From: a virus
Strand: one strand, 5' to 3'
IMG/VR virus record: IMGVR_UViG_3300014913_000056
Coordinates: 1-28,395 of that record
DNA: 28,395 nt
The notes under the pieces: model-generated
Seen by the model: the letters and a program-made list of their open reading frames with translations, nothing else
What the model was told of the DNA's origin: nothing
Database searches by the model: none
Shown: piece by piece, positions 1-5,172 of the stretch
How the letters are laid out: each line of letters opens with the position of its first letter
Position numbering within the stretch: the stretch's first letter is position 1
Position numbers and translations under genes: made by a program

Positions 1-1400
1 CTCAATGATAGTGTCAAACCAAAGGCAAGGTCATTATAGTTCCAAGCCTTCAATCTGCTCTTAGCAGGAGTAACGTCAATGTCTTTTGTTATCTCATTAT
101 GTTTGCATTGGAACTTATAGAAGTCTAAATACACATTGAAGTTGTGGGCAGTAGGTAAAGGCTTGCCAGCTTGACTTATATCTACGAACTGAGGATGCTG
201 AGCCTTAACTAACTTGATAAGTGCACCAATAGTTATTGATCGATCAGCGTTGTCTAAGCCAAAGGATTTCCATGTAGCAAACGAAGCTTGTTCGTCGTAC
301 TTATCACCGTGTTTGCTCCACTCATTCCAACAGTAATACCCATCAAGTGACCCCTTGAAATTATCGTGTATGCCCTGACCTATTATCAACCAGGGCTCTC
401 GTGCTTCCTCAGTCTCCTCTGGGTCTAATATGCATATCTCATTGTTCATGAGCCTATCAAAGATGTCAGACGTTAAATTCTGAACAGGTATCTGAGTGAG
501 CAGATGCCGTACTTGTGCTTGGTCGAGTGGCTTCCGCCGTTTCTTCTTTTTCTTTTCTGCTTTAGCAATAGCACGGTCAGCAGCACGGTCCTTAGCAGCC
601 TGCAACTCTTCTTGCGTAGGTATCCTATCCTCTAAGGCAACGATCTTTTGATTAGCGTCGACAAGGGTCTTAGTCTCCTTCTGTTGAGCCTCAGCCTCAG
701 CATGCGCAAAAGGAAGAGACATCTTATTAGACTTGAAGTAGAGGAGTAGCAAGTCTATTATTTCCTCCGTCTCTATTGTACGTATCTGAGCAGGTTGTGT
801 AGGTAAGAGACGACCCGTGACCGTCACATAGCCAGAAGAAATAAACAAGTCTCGTTTCTCAGTTTTATTACGTTTGCCACTACCAAAGCGTTTTATTATC
901 TCTAACTTGTCAGCAATGGTCTTAGCTCTGATGATAATATGATATCCATTGTTAGAGGGTGACCATTCTGTATATGACTCTAAGTCATCCATGAATTTAT
1001 TATTATCCTCAGTAGCGAGGTCTATGTCGATACAGATAAATGGATGTTTAGGAGTATAGGCAAACCCAAATCCAATAGGAGGAGTTCTGTCGTTAGCTTT
1101 ATACTGATCATACTCAGCATAGATTTGTGAAAATAATTTCGTATTATTTTGCCAGTTGGTGGTTGACATCGGTTTTTTAAGAATCTTTGTTACTTGATTC
1201 GGATTAGTCGGTGTTGACTGGTTGTTAGGAGTAGGTACCCATAATAACCAGAAAGGAAAGAAGTCTAAGATTAACTCTTCTGGGAAATTGATTGGTTTAA
1301 CATATGTTAGATCTGATTGTAGTTTAGGTATTTGTAGGTCTGGAATGATGAGAGGATTTTGAGGCGAAGACGGGGAGGAGGTCTGGTCAGTTTTGTTCAT
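1..1400 (-). CDS. PrimPol (AEP/D5-type) DNA primase, N-terminal part, truncated by window edge
   Basis: The frame is open from an ATG at 1400 to the left edge (466 codons seen, C-terminus missing). The archaeo-eukaryotic primase-polymerase motifs are present in order: CIDID (D125, D127) as the metal-binding DxD, SPSNNGYHIII (H154) as the sxH nucleotide-binding motif, and RDLFISSGYVTVTG as the third acidic motif, which fits the family pattern of acidic residue then GRYVTVTG. A Lys/Ala-rich linker (about residues 270-290) follows, then a segment with WLIIGQGIHDN and YYCWNEWSKHGDKYD...WKSF that resembles the PriCT-2 primase C-terminal domain. In this family a D5/SF3-like helicase usually follows, beyond this window. 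The gene should prime phage replication. A GAGG Shine-Dalgarno lies 8 bases upstream. It is transcribed away from the virion genes, from the promoter at 1434-1462. Confidence 0.9.
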   Translation of the reverse strand, partial: MNKTDQTSSPSSPQNPLIIPDLQIPKLQSDLTYVKPINFPEELILDFFPFWLLWVPTPNNQSTPTNPNQVTKILKKPMSTTNWQNNTKLFSQIYAEYDQYKANDRTPPIGFGFAYTPKHPFICIDIDLATEDNNKFMDDLESYTEWSPSNNGYHIIIRAKTIADKLEIIKRFGSGKRNKTEKRDLFISSGYVTVTGRLLPTQPAQIRTIETEEIIDLLLLYFKSNKMSLPFAHAEAEAQQKETKTLVDANQKIVALEDRIPTQEELQAAKDRAADRAIAKAEKKKKKRRKPLDQAQVRHLLTQIPVQNLTSDIFDRLMNNEICILDPEETEEAREPWLIIGQGIHDNFKGSLDGYYCWNEWSKHGDKYDEQASFATWKSFGLDNADRSITIGALIKLVKAQHPQFVDISQAGKPLPTAHNFNVYLDFYKFQCKHNEITKDIDVTPAKSRLKAWNYNDLAFGLTLSL

Positions 1401-1433
1401 TAAATTACCCTCATTAAGTTAATGTAAAAGTAT

Positions 1434-1462
1434 ATTATAACATATTTTTGAGGAAATGTAAA
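1434..1462 (-). promoter_or_regulatory. Sigma70-type promoter of the primase gene
   Basis: On the minus strand, TTTACA (1462-1457), a 17-base spacer and TATAAT (1439-1434) with an extended -10 TGT directly before it. This is close to consensus. It lies 33 bases upstream of the primase start, with a dyad a further 29 bases upstream. Confidence 0.82.
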
Positions 1463-1490
1463 CGCCAAAACATCCAGCTGGGAAAAATAA

Positions 1491-1507
1491 TATACAGAAA
1501 CTGTATA
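1491..1507. promoter_or_regulatory. ATACAG-AAA-CTGTAT operator-like dyad upstream of the primase promoter
   Basis: Perfect inverted repeat TATACAG-AAA-CTGTATA. Its centre (1499) is 37 bp from the first -35 base of the primase promoter, which places it near -72. The same dyad sits at the same distance from the terS promoter (4564-4578). That position suits an upstream activator better than a simple repressor. The binding protein is unknown. Confidence 0.65.
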
Positions 1508-1661
1508 TTATAAAAATTGAATATTGTAAAGTAGGTTAAAACAGTCTAGAGATTCGGGCTCGTTACTCTCCGAAAATTTTTTATAATAAAATCAGATAGT
1601 TAGAGAAAAAATAAGAACGAGCGTATTGTTTCTAACATTTTAACGTTTAACTTTCGCTTCG

Positions 1662-1674
1662 TACACTTTGTGTA
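1662..1674. promoter_or_regulatory. TACAC-N3-GTGTA dyad, left copy 1
   Basis: TACACTTTGTGTA, a perfect 5-bp inverted repeat around three bases. It is the same site as in the array at 3974-4360, here as a lone copy just left of the phased repeats at 1697-1740. It differs from the promoter-linked ATACAG-N3-CTGTAT dyad mainly by a C/G exchange at one position in each arm. Confidence 0.6.
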
Positions 1675-1696
1675 TATTTATACTGGTAAATTAGTG

Positions 1697-1740
1697 CATT
1701 TATAGGTCATTTATAGGTGCATTTATAGGTCATTTATAGG
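1697..1740 (+). repeat. Four helically phased CATTTATAGG direct repeats (possible origin iterons)
   Basis: The decamer CATTTATAGG occurs exactly at 1697, 1708, 1720 and 1731, so the spacings are 11, 12 and 11 bp, about one DNA helical turn. It can also be read as a 23-bp unit repeated twice. A very AT-rich stretch (about 1741-1900) follows. Phased direct repeats beside an AT-rich tract, near the primase gene, fit an initiator-binding origin. This is inference. Confidence 0.6.
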
Positions 1741-1975
1741 CAATTCCCCAGATCTTAAAAAAGTTAAAGTTGACTTTCAAAATCTACTCAATTATACTCT
1801 TATACTCTTATTATATACTAATTTTATCTAATAATATCAACTACTTACTTACTAAAAGAGTGTTAATAAGAATAATAAAAAGAATAAGAATAGGGTTAAG
1901 CAAAACTAGGCCCCACTATTACTTTCTGGATATTGCCGAATCACAGATACTTTTGGCTAAAAAACCCAAAAAATG
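1741..1975. other. AT-rich non-coding tract
   Basis: Mostly A/T sequence with short repeats such as TACTCTTA. A 75-codon frame here has low-complexity, Ile/Leu/Tyr-rich content and no convincing ribosome-binding site, so no gene is called. It could be the DNA-unwinding element that goes with the adjacent phased repeats. Confidence 0.4.
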
Positions 1976-1981
1976 TCCTCG

Positions 1982-1994
1982 TACACTTTGTGTA
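1982..1994. promoter_or_regulatory. TACAC-N3-GTGTA dyad, left copy 2
   Basis: TACACTTTGTGTA, same orientation and flanks (CGTACACTTTGTGTATA) as the copy at 1662-1674. The two copies bracket the phased repeats and the AT-rich tract. Confidence 0.6.
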
Positions 1995-2038
1995 TAGAAG
2001 GAACGGGATCTTCAATCCGGCCAGAACAAGGAAAGGAA

Positions 2039-2069
2039 AAGGAGATATTCTATGTCAGAATATCTCCTT
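2039..2069 (-). terminator. Terminator after the HTH-a gene
   Basis: Perfect 13-bp stem (AAGGAGATATTCT and its complement) with a 5-base loop, starting 10 bases past the stop of the minus-strand HTH-a gene. On the minus strand the stem is followed by a T-rich run (TTCCTTTCC). The plus-strand side is also fairly T-rich, so it may work in both directions. Confidence 0.75.
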
Positions 2070-2079
2070 TATTTGGTAA

Positions 2080-2349
2080 TTATGACTCAATAAACTTACG
2101 CCCTTTTGAATCAGTGGCAATTGCGTATCCATCCCGCCTCAAGTATGTAAGCTGAGAAGATACATTTCGTGGTGATATTCCAATGATTGATGCAATATCA
2201 ACGACACTGATCTTCTTTTCCTTAAGGATGTCTAATACTTCGTCTTTACGACCTGGTTTAATTACCTTTTGCTTACTCAGTCGATCTTCTAAACAGACTA
2301 ACTGATTCTCTAACTCTTCTACTTGTGCCAACAGTTCTTTCTTGTCCAT
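2080..2349 (-). CDS. Small winged-HTH DNA-binding protein, copy a (89 aa)
   Basis: An N-terminal leucine-heptad helix (about residues 5-25, with VEELENQLVCLEDRL) suggests dimerisation. A basic linker (KPGRKDE) follows, then a helix-turn-helix: ISVVDIASIIGIS as the first helix and turn, PRNVSSQLTYLRRDGY as the recognition helix, and ATDSKGRKFIE as a likely wing. It differs from the copy at 3425-3694 at only six of 89 residues, all in the first half (2, 4, 8, 9, 18 and 45). It has its own promoter (2420-2448), a hairpin that presents the Shine-Dalgarno (2351-2368) and a terminator. It is probably a transcriptional regulator of this control region; its target sites are not proven. No named family is claimed. 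Confidence 0.85.
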   Translation of the reverse strand: MDKKELLAQVEELENQLVCLEDRLSKQKVIKPGRKDEVLDILKEKKISVVDIASIIGISPRNVSSQLTYLRRDGYAIATDSKGRKFIES

Positions 2350-2350
2350 G

Positions 2351-2368
2351 ATTACACCTCACTGTAAT
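2351..2368 (-). promoter_or_regulatory. Leader hairpin presenting the Shine-Dalgarno of HTH-a
   Basis: In the mRNA, ATTACA pairs with TGTAAT across a 6-base loop GTGAGG that carries the Shine-Dalgarno. The ATG begins one base after the stem. The HTH-b leader has the same structure with compensatory base changes (GATACA/TGTATC). It may allow translational autoregulation, or it may be a DNA dyad bound near the gene start. Confidence 0.55.
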
Positions 2369-2384
2369 TTTGGTTTGTGACGCA

Positions 2385-2403
2385 AGTGATTCAAATAATC
2401 ACT
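2385..2403 (-). other. 5' UTR hairpin of the HTH-a transcript
   Basis: 7-bp stem AGTGATT/AATCACT with a 5-base loop, between the predicted start of transcription (about 2413) and the Shine-Dalgarno hairpin. The HTH-b leader also has an upstream hairpin, of different sequence. Confidence 0.45.
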
Positions 2404-2419
2404 CACTCTCCATACATAT

Positions 2420-2448
2420 ATTATATCATAAATTTTACCAAAAGTAAA
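2420..2448 (-). promoter_or_regulatory. Sigma70-type promoter of the HTH-a gene
   Basis: On the minus strand, TTTACT (2448-2443), a 17-base spacer, then TATAAT (2425-2420) preceded by TGA, an extended -10. It has the same layout as the primase and HTH-b promoters. Confidence 0.8.
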
Positions 2449-2513
2449 CATTAAAATATCCATGGATGAAATTAGCTTTGGACTCTCTTTGGTTATGTCG
2501 GCTCAGTGACTCA

Positions 2514-2544
2514 GGTTCATCTGGCTACTATCATCAGATGAACC
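2514..2544. other. Hairpin overlapping the next terminator stem
   Basis: GGTTCATCTG pairs with CAGATGAACC across an 11-base loop that contains TACTATCATC. Its right arm shares 2541-2544 with the stem of the hairpin at 2541-2572, so the two cannot both form fully. The loop decamer recurs at 2978-2987 and 3021-3030. Confidence 0.5.
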
Positions 2545-2572
2545 CACTAGTATTGTATAATACTAGTGGGTT
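2541..2572 (-). terminator. Bidirectional-looking terminator after the 83-aa gene
   Basis: Perfect 14-bp stem (AACCCACTAGTATT and complement) with a 4-base loop, 5 bases past the stop of the minus-strand gene 2578-2829. The T-rich tail (TTAATTTAT) is on the plus side, and only TTCATCTG follows on the minus side, so termination of the minus transcript may be leaky. Confidence 0.6.
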
Positions 2573-2577
2573 TTAAT

Positions 2578-2829
2578 TTATCTTACAGTCTTTTCTAGTT
2601 TAACTGTAATATCTAAAAGGTCCTCCAGTCCTTCAAAACTAGGATTATCTCCATTCATATAGCCTAGTCTAGCATGCTCCATCAATAAGTCAAAGTGAGG
2701 AAGTAGAGCTAGTCTAGCTAATTCTTTTTCTTCAAGTGTTAAGCTAGGATACTTATCCTCAATTACCTCAGCTAACTCAGCCATTTGTTTACTCATGTAG
2801 ATTAGATGATTCTTTGTTGTTGTAATCAT
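2578..2829 (-). CDS. Small helical protein of unknown function, paralogue of the 81-aa gene (83 aa)
   Basis: I do not recognise the family. The protein looks all-helical. Its second half (ELARLALLPHFDLLMEHARL then GDNPSFEGLEDLLD) aligns with ELIRLSAIPIINELMTIAKA and GRQPNFDSLIDVMND of the 81-aa protein at 3122-3367, so the two are diverged paralogues. I chose the ATG at 2829 because GGAGG lies 9 bases upstream; a longer frame would need a TTG at 2844 that sits inside this Shine-Dalgarno. The gene has its own promoter (2888-2916) and lies between the two HTH genes. It could be an HTH partner or an early host-directed protein; there is no direct evidence for either. Confidence 0.75.
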   Translation of the reverse strand: MITTTKNHLIYMSKQMAELAEVIEDKYPSLTLEEKELARLALLPHFDLLMEHARLGYMNGDNPSFEGLEDLLDITVKLEKTVR

Positions 2830-2855
2830 AATTCTATCCTCCAATGTTAGTTTTT

Positions 2856-2878
2856 AATACCAAAGTTATTTTGATATT
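2856..2878 (-). other. 5' UTR hairpin of the 83-aa gene
   Basis: AATATCAAA and TTTGGTATT (as read in the mRNA) form a 9-bp stem with one G-U pair and a 5-base loop, upstream of the Shine-Dalgarno. Confidence 0.35.
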
Positions 2879-2887
2879 GTATACTTT

Positions 2888-2916
2888 ATTATAATCTATT
2901 TTTCTTCGCATGTAAA
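2888..2916 (-). promoter_or_regulatory. Sigma70-type promoter of the 83-aa gene
   Basis: On the minus strand, TTTACA (2916-2911), a 17-base spacer, TATAAT (2893-2888). The layout matches the other promoters of this region, but without the extended -10 TG. Confidence 0.82.
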
Positions 2917-2966
2917 CATAAATATTTCACCGAGGTAAAATGGTGACTGGATAAATAGTACGAGCT

Positions 2967-3061
2967 CATCCGGCTGCTACTATCATCGGACTTTTGATTA
3001 AATCGCACGGATTCATCCAGTACTATCATCAACCGGATGACTGAAGTATTTACAGTCATCC
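2967..3061. repeat. Cluster of GATGA/TCATC hairpins with repeated TACTATCATC
   Basis: Non-coding DNA between a terminator and the next promoter. It holds CATCCGG (2967-2973) pairing with CCGGATG (3033-3039), a second 9-bp stem GGATGACTG/CAGTCATCC (3035-3043 with 3053-3061), and two copies of TACTATCATC (2978-2987 and 3021-3030). A third copy lies at 2526-2535. A 60-codon minus frame across this stretch is not credible as a gene. The role is unknown; operator sites or a small structured RNA are possible. Confidence 0.5.
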
Positions 3062-3074
3062 AGTATAACAAAGT

Positions 3075-3111
3075 AAAATAAAAGCAGCGCTGTTAACGCT
3101 GCTTTTATTTT
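3075..3111 (-). terminator. Strong bidirectional terminator after the 81-aa gene
   Basis: Perfect 15-bp stem with a 7-base loop. GC core AGCAGCG/CGCTGCT is flanked by A-rich and T-rich arms (AAAATAAA, TTTATTTT), typical of a rho-independent terminator in both directions. It begins 10 bases past the stop of the minus-strand gene 3122-3367. Confidence 0.88.
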
Positions 3112-3121
3112 GCATTACTTT

Positions 3122-3367
3122 TTATACGTCATTCATTACATCTATTAAGCTGTCAAAATTTGGTTGCCTACCTGATAGATACTCAGCTTTCGCAATTGTC
3201 ATTAATTCATTAATTATAGGTATTGCTGATAATCTTATAAGCTCATGATCCCTTTCATGTAACTTATGTCCTGAATCATTTAACTGATTAGCTAATTGAA
3301 GCATATTTGTTCCCATGTTTTCCAACGCATTTTTAATACTTATTGTACGATTTGTTAGCTTTTCCAT
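3122..3367 (-). CDS. Small helical protein of unknown function (81 aa)
   Basis: Helical, no recognised domain. It shares the pattern LxRLxxxP...LM..A...Y..G..P.F..L.D with the 83-aa protein at 2578-2829, so the two are diverged paralogues. It starts at ATG 3367 with GGAGGT 7 bases upstream. It follows the HTH-b gene in the same direction with 57 bases between them and no promoter seen, so the two are probably co-transcribed from the promoter at 3778-3806. Transcription ends at the strong terminator 3075-3111. Confidence 0.78.
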   Translation of the reverse strand: MEKLTNRTISIKNALENMGTNMLQLANQLNDSGHKLHERDHELIRLSAIPIINELMTIAKAEYLSGRQPNFDSLIDVMNDV

Positions 3368-3383
3368 TTTATTACCTCCAGTT

Positions 3384-3415
3384 GTGAGAGAGTCATATTA
3401 CTATGACTCTCTCAC
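3384..3415 (-). other. Intergenic hairpin between HTH-b and the 81-aa gene
   Basis: Perfect 14-bp stem GTGAGAGAGTCATA/TATGACTCTCTCAC with a 4-base loop and no T-run on either side. It lies just upstream of the Shine-Dalgarno of the 81-aa gene. It may be an RNA stability or processing element that tunes the ratio of the two proteins, or a weak attenuator. Confidence 0.6.
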
Positions 3416-3424
3416 ATCAGTTGT

Positions 3425-3694
3425 TTATGATTCGATGAATTTACGTCCCTTAGAATCAGTTGCTATTGCATATCCGTCTCGTCTAAGATATGTCAGTTGA
3501 GATGATACATTTCGTGGGGATATTCCAATGATTGATGCAATATCAACGACACTGATCTTCCCTTCCTTTAGTATGTCCAACACTTCATCTTTTCTTCCTG
3601 GCTTAATTACCTTCTGCTTACTCAGTCGATCTTCTAAACAGATTAACTGATTCTCTAATTCTTCTACACATTTCAACAGTTCTTCTTTATTCAT
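3425..3694 (-). CDS. Small winged-HTH DNA-binding protein, copy b (89 aa)
   Basis: Same architecture as the protein at 2080-2349: N-terminal leucine-heptad helix, basic linker, then a helix-turn-helix (IASIIGISPRNVSSQLTYLR) and a wing; 83 of 89 residues are identical. I chose ATG 3694 because it aligns with the start of copy a and follows GAGGTG; the longer frame would need a GTG at 3706 inside the Shine-Dalgarno hairpin. At DNA level the last quarter of the gene carries many synonymous differences from copy a, while the middle (about 3500-3560) is almost identical. That suggests purifying selection with local gene conversion. It is first in an operon with the 81-aa gene. Likely a regulator; target unproven. 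Confidence 0.85.
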   Translation of the reverse strand: MNKEELLKCVEELENQLICLEDRLSKQKVIKPGRKDEVLDILKEGKISVVDIASIIGISPRNVSSQLTYLRRDGYAIATDSKGRKFIES

Positions 3695-3713
3695 GATACA
3701 CCTCACTTGTATC
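3695..3713 (-). promoter_or_regulatory. Leader hairpin presenting the Shine-Dalgarno of HTH-b
   Basis: In the mRNA, GATACA pairs with TGTATC across a 7-base loop AGTGAGG, and the ATG follows the stem directly. Against the HTH-a leader (ATTACA/TGTAAT), the two outer pairs are changed on both sides, so pairing is kept while sequence differs. Confidence 0.55.
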
Positions 3714-3716
3714 TTG

Positions 3717-3753
3717 TTTTATATTTAATAACTACATGTCATTAAATATAAAA
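3717..3753 (-). other. 5' UTR stem-loop of the HTH-b operon
   Basis: Perfect 13-bp arms TTTTATATTTAAT/ATTAAATATAAAA with an 11-base loop, between the predicted transcription start (about 3771) and the Shine-Dalgarno hairpin. All pairs are A-T, so stability is modest. Confidence 0.5.
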
Positions 3754-3777
3754 CGTTTTTAATTTTGAATAAAATTA

Positions 3778-3806
3778 ATTATAACATAAATTTTTTATTT
3801 TGTAAA
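3778..3806 (-). promoter_or_regulatory. Sigma70-type promoter of the HTH-b operon
   Basis: On the minus strand, TTTACA (3806-3801), a 17-base spacer, then TATAAT (3783-3778) with an extended -10 TGT. Its elements are the same as those of the primase promoter. Confidence 0.82.
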
Positions 3807-3973
3807 CGATTATTTTTATTTTTATTATAAATACATGATTTTATTATAAAAATTTATAAAATAATTAATCCCTGTATCCCAGGTAGGGTTGGGATTTGAA
3901 TTTTCAAAATTTTTTCTATATAAAGGGGGTATGGTGGCTTAAAATATATGAATTGGCGTATATAATCAAGCAA
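3807..3973. other. Non-coding stretch left of the repeat array
   Basis: AT-rich, with an AATCCC (3867-3872)/GGGATT (3891-3896) inverted repeat around a smaller CCC/GGG pair, and TTGGCG (3953-3958) facing CGCCAA in the first array unit. I see no gene, no tRNA cloverleaf and no convincing promoter. Confidence 0.35.
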
Positions 3974-4360
3974 TTCGCCAAAATTTTTTTCCCCCTTAAA
4001 CTCAAAATATACACAAAGTGTAAATACCTTATTTCGACCGAAATTTTTTCCCTTCATTTTAAGAATATACACAAAGTGTAAATACCTTATTTCGACCGAA
4101 ATATTTAAGCAGTTCGCCAAAATTTTTTTCCCTTCATTTTAAGAATATACACAAAGTGTAAATACCTTATTTCGACCGAAATATTTAACCGTTTCGACCG
4201 AATTTTTTTCCCTTCATTTTAAGAATATACACAAAGTGTATTTACCACTATATTATTTTGTTTCAAGCATTTCGACTGAAATTTTTCCCCTTAAACTCAA
4301 AATATACACAAAGTGTAATTTATTTTTCCCCACTTAAACTCAAAATATACACTTTGTGTA
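3974..4360 (+). repeat. Array of six composite repeats carrying two kinds of dyad
   Basis: Each unit runs: a TTTCGACCGAAA-type dyad or its variant (TTCGCCAA), an A/T-to-C run (AAATTTTTTTCCC), a spacer, AATATACAC-AAA-GTGTA, then AATACCTTA. The TACAC-AAA-GTGTA dyads are at 4010, 4068, 4148, 4228 and 4305; a sixth at 4348 is inverted. Start-to-start distances are 58, 80, 80, 77 and 43 bp. Frames crossing the array on both strands are artefacts of the repeats. Candidates are replication iterons, a multi-operator control region, a partition site or the packaging (pac) site, given terS next door. Confidence 0.8.
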
Positions 4361-4370
4361 AATTGATTCT

Positions 4371-4483
4371 CTAACACTATAAATCCCAATTTCTATATTA
4401 TTCTAATACTATAAATCCCACTCTCTATAGTATTCTAATACTGTAAATCCCAATTTCTATATTATTCTAATACTGTAAGTCCT
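4371..4483 (+). repeat. 32-bp tandem repeat, about 3.5 copies
   Basis: CTAAYACTRTAAATCCC begins at 4371, 4403, 4435 and 4467 (last copy diverged), so the period is exactly 32 bp. The repeat tails read AATTTCTATATTATT or a close variant. It directly follows the composite array. Function unknown. Confidence 0.75.
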
Positions 4484-4563
4484 ATGACTTCTATCAAATC
4501 CTCCAGGGGCTACTTATCCAGATCCATATTATATCATTTAATATAGGGCCAGAATATCAGAAA

Positions 4564-4578
4564 ATACAGTTTCTGTAT
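4564..4578. promoter_or_regulatory. ATACAG-TTT-CTGTAT operator-like dyad upstream of the terS promoter
   Basis: Perfect inverted repeat, the same site as at 1491-1507. Its centre (4571) lies 37 bp before the first -35 base of the terS promoter, the same distance as on the primase side. Confidence 0.65.
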
Positions 4579-4581
4579 TAT

Positions 4582-4596
4582 ATACACATTCTGTAT
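4582..4596. promoter_or_regulatory. Imperfect second dyad ATACAC-ATT-CTGTAT
   Basis: One mismatch from a perfect dyad. Centred 18 bp downstream of the first dyad, between it and the -35. It is a hybrid of the two dyad families (ATACAC left arm, CTGTAT right arm). No equivalent is seen on the primase side. Confidence 0.4.
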
Positions 4597-4607
4597 CGAA
4601 ATAAAGG

Positions 4608-4636
4608 CTTACAAAACACGAAAAACATGCTCTAAT
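4608..4636 (+). promoter_or_regulatory. Probable promoter of the virion gene operon
   Basis: CTTACA (4608-4613), a 17-base spacer, TCTAAT (4631-4636) with TGC before it (extended -10). It is weaker than the primase promoter but follows the same pattern, and would suit dependence on an activator at the dyad 29 bases upstream. TATAAT at 4642-4647 is an alternative -10 but lacks a suitable -35. Confidence 0.55.
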
Positions 4637-4671
4637 AATATTATAATTAACTAATCAATAGGGAACCCATT

Positions 4672-5172
4672 ATGCTGGACATAGCACTCCTAAAATTACA
4701 GTACGAGATTCTGAATAAGACACCGAGTGAACTCTCCGCTGATTGTGGGATGCCTGAAGAAGCCATCCTAGATACCATTAAAGAAAAAGGGTGGAAACAA
4801 TGGTGGCCCTCAGGTATTGATGACGAGATCCTAGCCAAAAGTACTGAGAACATCGAGGAACAAGATGAGCTCCTAGTACTACAATCTGAACAATTCCTGG
4901 ATCGAGCGAAACGGCGTCTCGCAGTGTATACCATCGCCAAAGAGATTCATCTCGCTCAAAAATATCTCAAGCTAGAGTCTGCTATTATCGATAAGGCTTA
5001 CACTTTAATTAATGACTTGTCTGGGCTTGACACTAAGAGCATTAAAGACTTGTCAACCTTGTATAAAGACATGACTGCTAAGTCTCCTACTTCTGCCTTA
5101 GCTGCCTTCTCATTCTGTGAAGATGAGGGAGGACTACCGAGTGTCATTATACGAGACCTTTCTGGTCGCTAA
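4672..5172 (+). CDS. Terminase small subunit (putative)
   Basis: 166 aa, first gene of the plus-strand virion operon and only 3 bases upstream of terL, the usual place for the small terminase subunit. The N-terminal part (ILNKTPSELSADCGMPEEAI) looks like a helix-turn-helix, the DNA-recognition part of TerS proteins. The rest is predicted to be helical (about residues 65-140), as in the oligomerising core. TerS would bind the phage packaging site and deliver DNA to TerL. The start has only a weak AGGGAA Shine-Dalgarno. The call rests mainly on position, size and the HTH-like segment. Confidence 0.75.
   Translation: MLDIALLKLQYEILNKTPSELSADCGMPEEAILDTIKEKGWKQWWPSGIDDEILAKSTENIEEQDELLVLQSEQFLDRAKRRLAVYTIAKEIHLAQKYLKLESAIIDKAYTLINDLSGLDTKSIKDLSTLYKDMTAKSPTSALAAFSFCEDEGGLPSVIIRDLSGR

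Follow-up and report, generated by a model that had tools for sequence, protein, structure and literature searches.

The 28,395-base virus record IMGVR_UViG_3300014913_000056 (the window, analysed at its full length) carries on its minus strand two paralogous helix-turn-helix (HTH) genes, HTH-a and HTH-b, each preceded by a short hairpin that holds the Shine-Dalgarno (SD) sequence in its loop, directly before the start codon (Table 1). The hairpins, their predicted formation, an unusual exposure of the SD and the shared descent of the two genes follow from computation. Our tentative interpretation, which we rate at slightly short of an even chance, is that the hairpins display the ribosome-binding site (RBS) where translation of a duplicated phage regulator gene begins. 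Most likely, they are a modest inherited feature of translation start, rather than a demonstrated control switch.

The sequence bears out the original prediction with regard to the hairpins as such: both 6-bp stems lie where they had been placed, with GAGG in the loop and 0–1 base between the 3′ arm and the ATG. In folding predictions of the 111-nt leaders, the six stem pairs form with probabilities of 0.94–0.99 (HTH-a) and 0.85–0.97 (HTH-b), and the SD is unpaired with a probability of 0.996 and 0.986, respectively. The controls were 786 genes other than HTH genes, drawn from the window and from related loci, and included an AT-rich subset (n = 101). Their median SD exposure is 0.44, and two of the 786 reach the value of HTH-a and five that of HTH-b, i.e., both copies rank in the top 1%. 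Stems of at least six Watson-Crick pairs around the SD occur in 10/786 controls, four of these at −2.5 kcal/mol or better, and in 5/101 AT-rich controls; among the 18 window genes scored, they are found only in HTH-a and HTH-b. As predicted, such a stem is missing from the neighboring genes g2 and g3, where at best 3 and 2 bp surround the SD. When the 5′ flank was shuffled (20,000 shuffles), a 6-bp stem with the SD in its loop arose in 1.0% (HTH-a) and 1.1% (HTH-b) of cases, and for each leader taken singly the stems exceed chance. The two rarity results are not independent, since the two leaders are homologous (79% similarity over 24 nt, compared to 84% in the coding region). Nevertheless, stem probabilities, SD exposure and stem rarity against the controls make the observation real and non-trivial, and folding supports the statement that the hairpins present the SD.

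Folded alone, the hairpins are weak (−2.8 kcal/mol for HTH-a, −3.4 kcal/mol for HTH-b). For the MS2 coat gene, de Smit and van Duin reportedly found that structures weaker than about −6 kcal/mol cost little initiation; measured against this threshold, the isolated energies make the SD hairpins too weak to block initiation alone. In the favored mechanism, the stem would form between a 5′ arm of the TACA type and the spacer that separates SD and ATG (TGTA and two further bases). GAGG would thereby be held in a loop of 6 or 7 bases, out of reach of the AT-rich leader and of the upstream stem-loop, in a stem weak enough to be melted by the 30S subunit. In HTH-b, that stem-loop lies 2 nt before the SD hairpin and is stronger than its HTH-a counterpart. 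Both copies would have inherited the hairpin at the HTH duplication, with GTGAGGTGTA retained as SD. Exposure would raise or steady translation, and we infer that the 5′ arm was retained by selection and not merely through descent; in support, the stem is intact in both copies despite 30 synonymous differences between the genes. If the hairpins matter, they would constitute a compact case of a phage regulator RBS that is kept constantly exposed beside leader stems.

Covariation and the leaders of relatives

The hairpins had also been described as covarying, with bases altered in both arms between the copies. This description does not hold up, as it draws on a single paralogue pair and needs a structure-forced alignment. 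Confined to the two window leaders, such an alignment would show the two altered pairs; when HTH-a and HTH-b are aligned by sequence, a single gap appears in the 3′ arm (TGTAATCATG vs. TGTATCATG) under all four scoring schemes tried. The 3′-arm difference is most simply accounted for by one inserted or deleted A, and both “changed” bases there would therefore represent one event. In a MAFFT alignment of three leaders with a common SD string, i.e., HTH-a, HTH-b and that of the related locus L026, none of the six pairs of the HTH-a structure is altered on both sides (n = 3), which is a strict test because the sequence-based alignment sets the HTH-a and HTH-b stems one base out of register. Covariation was rejected on the basis of these sequence alignments and of the L026 leader, which has no 5′ arm. 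Of the features expected from a covarying structured RNA element, neither paired changes in independent homologues nor a match to an Rfam family was found; cmscan of positions 1400–4700 against Rfam returned two sub-threshold matches, neither of them over an SD hairpin. Scans of viral_contigs and genome_contigs, tblastn of an HTH protein against phages and plasmids, and blastn of positions 1–4670 against phages yielded no homologue close enough for a real covariation test, and no description of these hairpins appears among the papers listed by the literature searches. The comparison with a homologue illustrates how two-copy “covariation” can arise from one indel.

Relatives were collected by TerL searches, which gave 23 and 71 loci. 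HTH genes adjoin the terminase in L026 (TerL 69%), L028 (65%), L030 (61%), L032 (59%) and L006/L198 (59%), and an HTH profile search of 50 of the 71 TerL records returned six matches, including a weak one interrupted by stops. No relatives were found by searching from g3, and a search with the conserved string beside the terS promoter found only the known L028 and five other places without window-like genes. L026 is the only HTH homologue found with the same SD string. In its leader, AATTTAAAAAGTGAGGTGTAATTATG, loop and 3′ arm (AAGTGAGGTGTAATTATG) are as in the window, the Watson-Crick score is 1 and the SD is unpaired with a probability of 0.47. L026 thus provides what the original prediction had itself named as contrary evidence, one arm changed without the other, with the caveat of a low identity (35%) of its HTH protein.

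Three of the 20 non-window HTH leaders scored have an SD stem of at least 6 bp. The SD-in-loop strings of L028 (TTTAAT-GTAAAGGGG-ATTAAA) and L030 (TTTAATT-AAGGAG-AATTAAA) differ in sequence from those of the window, the former predicted not to form (pair probability 0.00) and the latter with pair probabilities of 0.63–0.78; the third is the distant homologue L025 (0.90–1.00). This proportion gives P = 0.13 against the AT-rich controls and P = 0.003 against all controls (Fisher). Dropped before counting were L016 and L017 (no SD core found), L008, L010/L011 and L012 (unclear start codon), and a weak third hit in L002; at automatic starts, L008, L010, L012 and the L002 hit score 3 or less, so that the number with at least six pairs is unchanged. 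Among the five syntenic non-window leaders, two have the stem (P = 0.034 against AT-rich controls), including that of L028, which is predicted not to form. The recurrence of SD-in-loop stems among HTH leaders is therefore not convincing.

Several of these observations weigh against a display function: L026 keeps the SD string without the 5′ arm, which implies that display is not needed there, and the stem is present in few of the non-window leaders. Moreover, enclosure of the SD in a loop of 6 bases may sterically disfavor its helix with the anti-SD. The main rival explanation is chance combined with descent, i.e., a TACA that happened to stand upstream of the common phage RBS string GTGAGGTGTA in the ancestor and was inherited by both copies, the outer two pairs being chance in AT-rich DNA and the hairpin having no function beyond the SD. 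We regard this as possible, if rather doubtful. AAGTGAGGTGTA(A/T) is indeed a common string, which precedes an ATG in at least 120 stretches of the viral contigs, and five of 99 such sites with an open reading frame (not deduplicated) have a stem of at least six pairs around the SD, with G-U allowed. The L026 string without arm and the single indel in the 3′ arm fit this explanation as well, as does a leader similarity about that of the coding region. However, chance does not readily account for a stem that shuffled flanks yield so seldom, for the high SD exposure of both copies, or for the persistence of the stem through a divergence with 30 synonymous changes.

The HTH module and the 13-bp dyads

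Table 1. Features of the window and of the two HTH leaders.
Feature	Position	Strand	Remarks
Virus record	28,395 bases		terminase, portal and capsid genes on right side
Primase-like reading frame and four small genes	left side	minus	
HTH-b gene	3694–3425	minus	paralogue of HTH-a
g3 gene	3367–3122	minus	
g2 gene	ATG at 2829, end at 2578	minus	
HTH-a gene	2349–2080	minus	89-aa protein: N-terminal helix and winged HTH
HTH-a SD hairpin	2351–2368	minus	ATTACA-GTGAGG-TGTAAT; 1 base (C) before ATG
HTH-b SD hairpin	3695–3713	minus	GATACA-AGTGAGG-TGTATC; 0 bases before ATG
HTH-a leader upstream stem-loop	2382–2406	minus	AGTGATT/AATCACT core; leader fold z −1.7
HTH-b leader upstream stem-loop	3716–3754	minus	inverted repeat, 17-nt arms; leader fold z −6.1
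HTH-a promoter (putative)	2420–2448	minus	TTTACT-17-TATAAT; pattern match
HTH-b promoter (putative)	3778–3806	minus	TTTACA-17-TATAAT; pattern match

The name of the terminase comes from the present analysis, and the remaining genes are presumably what their look and order suggest. HTH-a and HTH-b are 93% identical in amino acids and identical at 227 of 270 coding nucleotides; 36 codons differ, and the 30 synonymous differences among them indicate that the genes are not freshly copied. Both proteins match Pfam HTH_5 (22.1 bits for HTH-a and 24.3 bits for HTH-b, cut-off 22). The AlphaFold2 model of HTH-a shows a winged HTH preceded by a long N-terminal helix (mean predicted local distance difference test score 90.8), and the Foldseek matches of this model are mostly ArsR/IclR/MarR-type DNA-binding regulators, none at E ≤ 0.001. 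By these models, the HTH proteins look like winged-HTH folds resembling DNA-binding regulators. The g2 and g3 proteins are related (Smith-Waterman score 97, with 0/2000 shuffles as high), which suggests that the HTH gene and its partner may be a duplicated module; BLASTP reported nothing, and family searches with g2 and g3 gave no convincing family match. Putative leftward promoters that share the pattern TTTAC-N18-TATAAT are found at four places on the minus strand, 3806–3778, 2916–2888, 2448–2420 and 1462–1434. Between HTH-b and g3, a perfect 15-bp stem with a 4-nt loop and no T-run (3383–3416) directly precedes the g3 SD and is possibly a processing or attenuation element.

Dyads of the form TACA-N3..8-TGTA are enriched in the window (16 observed vs. 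4.4 expected). Eleven follow a single pattern, TACA(C/G)-N3-(C/G)TGTA, all with 5-bp arms and a 3-bp spacer; they flank the HTH module at 1493–1994 and 4010–4595 and occur nowhere else in the window. The same kind is present upstream of terS in L026 (3), L027 (2), L028 (3) and L197 (2), i.e., in 5/44 sources tested (window included), and absent from the other 39. The latter include L192, whose capsid protein is the most similar (84%) in a comparison of four relatives. L032 has three copies of a different dyad, likewise with a 3-bp spacer (ATACTT-TGT-AAGTAT). The 13-bp dyads resemble operator sites for a DNA-binding protein that acts as a dimer, plausibly the HTH protein, and they are the better lead on what the HTH proteins bind. 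By eye, the center of dyad 4583–4595 lies 19 nt before the −35 box of the putative terS promoter, as does L028 dyad 927–939 relative to its terS −35 box, the distance being 13 nt in L026. L198 has imperfect dyad relatives, TACACTTTGTGAA and TACACTTTTTGAA, between HTH and terS (within 1–1000, by eye). An 80-bp direct repeat with a dyad and a TTTCGACCGAAA palindrome is present in four copies at 3975–4272 of the window, and L197 carries a second TerL piece (1–126, residues 438–479) upstream of its dyads and terS.

As an alternative, the original prediction had offered a DNA operator at the start codon, in which the TACA/TGTA arms would be a site for the HTH protein related to these dyads. The enrichment in the window is consistent with this idea, as is the conservation of 13-bp dyads in L026 and L028, where they lie between HTH gene and terS, but it is unlikely on several counts. 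The leader sites would need spacers of 4 and 5 bp, in contrast to the 3 bp of all 11 window dyads, and also differ in spacing from each other. Compared to TACAC-N3-GTGTA, they have at best 5 (HTH-a) and 4 (HTH-b) mismatches in 10 positions, which is equalled by thousands and hundreds of other places, respectively. In addition, they are located downstream, at about +45 to +62 (HTH-a) and +58 to +76 (HTH-b), of transcription starts placed 7 bases after the −10 boxes.

Likeness to known operators and start sites

In form, the hairpins come closest to CsrA sites among the known kinds, yet the resemblance fails on GGA. The CsrA consensus is RUACARGGAUGU, with ACA and GGA conserved in 100% of the ligands from systematic evolution of ligands by exponential enrichment, according to PMC4347634. 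Like CsrA/RsmA operators, the phage elements are small hairpins with ACA/UGU arms, UUACA/UGUAA in HTH-a and AUACA/UGUAU in HTH-b, and with loops that contain the SD purines immediately upstream of the start codon. Unlike these operators, the loops GTGAGG and AGTGAGG hold GAGG and no GGA, and no CsrA gene was found in the window.

The MS2 replicase operator is an autogenous phage translational operator. Further examples are T4 gene 43 and gene 32, as described in PMC3014915. The HTH hairpins share with such operators a structured RNA near or over the RBS of a phage nucleic-acid-binding protein, and they enclose the SD itself. In contrast to the gene 43 and gene 32 operators, the HTH hairpins consist of a 6-bp stem that surrounds the SD, and a repressor would be hypothetical. 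Position and arms together would suit a translational operator, at which binding of a protein to the hairpin would block the 30S subunit; this protein might be the HTH itself, some other product of the phage or a CsrA-type protein of the host. We consider this improbable, given loops without GGA, a window without CsrA, HTH proteins that look like DNA binders, and an L026 leader without hairpin. Translational autocontrol, as originally put forward, is possible but unsupported, and the hairpins make a weak case for it. It is very unlikely indeed that one winged-HTH protein reads TACA/TGTA half-sites in two settings, in DNA with a 3-bp spacer at the replication and terminase promoters and in RNA with the hairpin loop as spacer at its own RBS, and thereby controls transcription as well as its own translation.

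The first interpretation was thus over-read, while the feature itself is real but modest. Display of the RBS, which we continue to favor, brings the hairpins close to unregulated start sites in which a weak hairpin leaves the SD in its unpaired loop, as in the few controls with at least 6 bp. Unlike such start sites in general, the hairpins described here are present in both paralogues, with unusually high predicted exposure of the SD.
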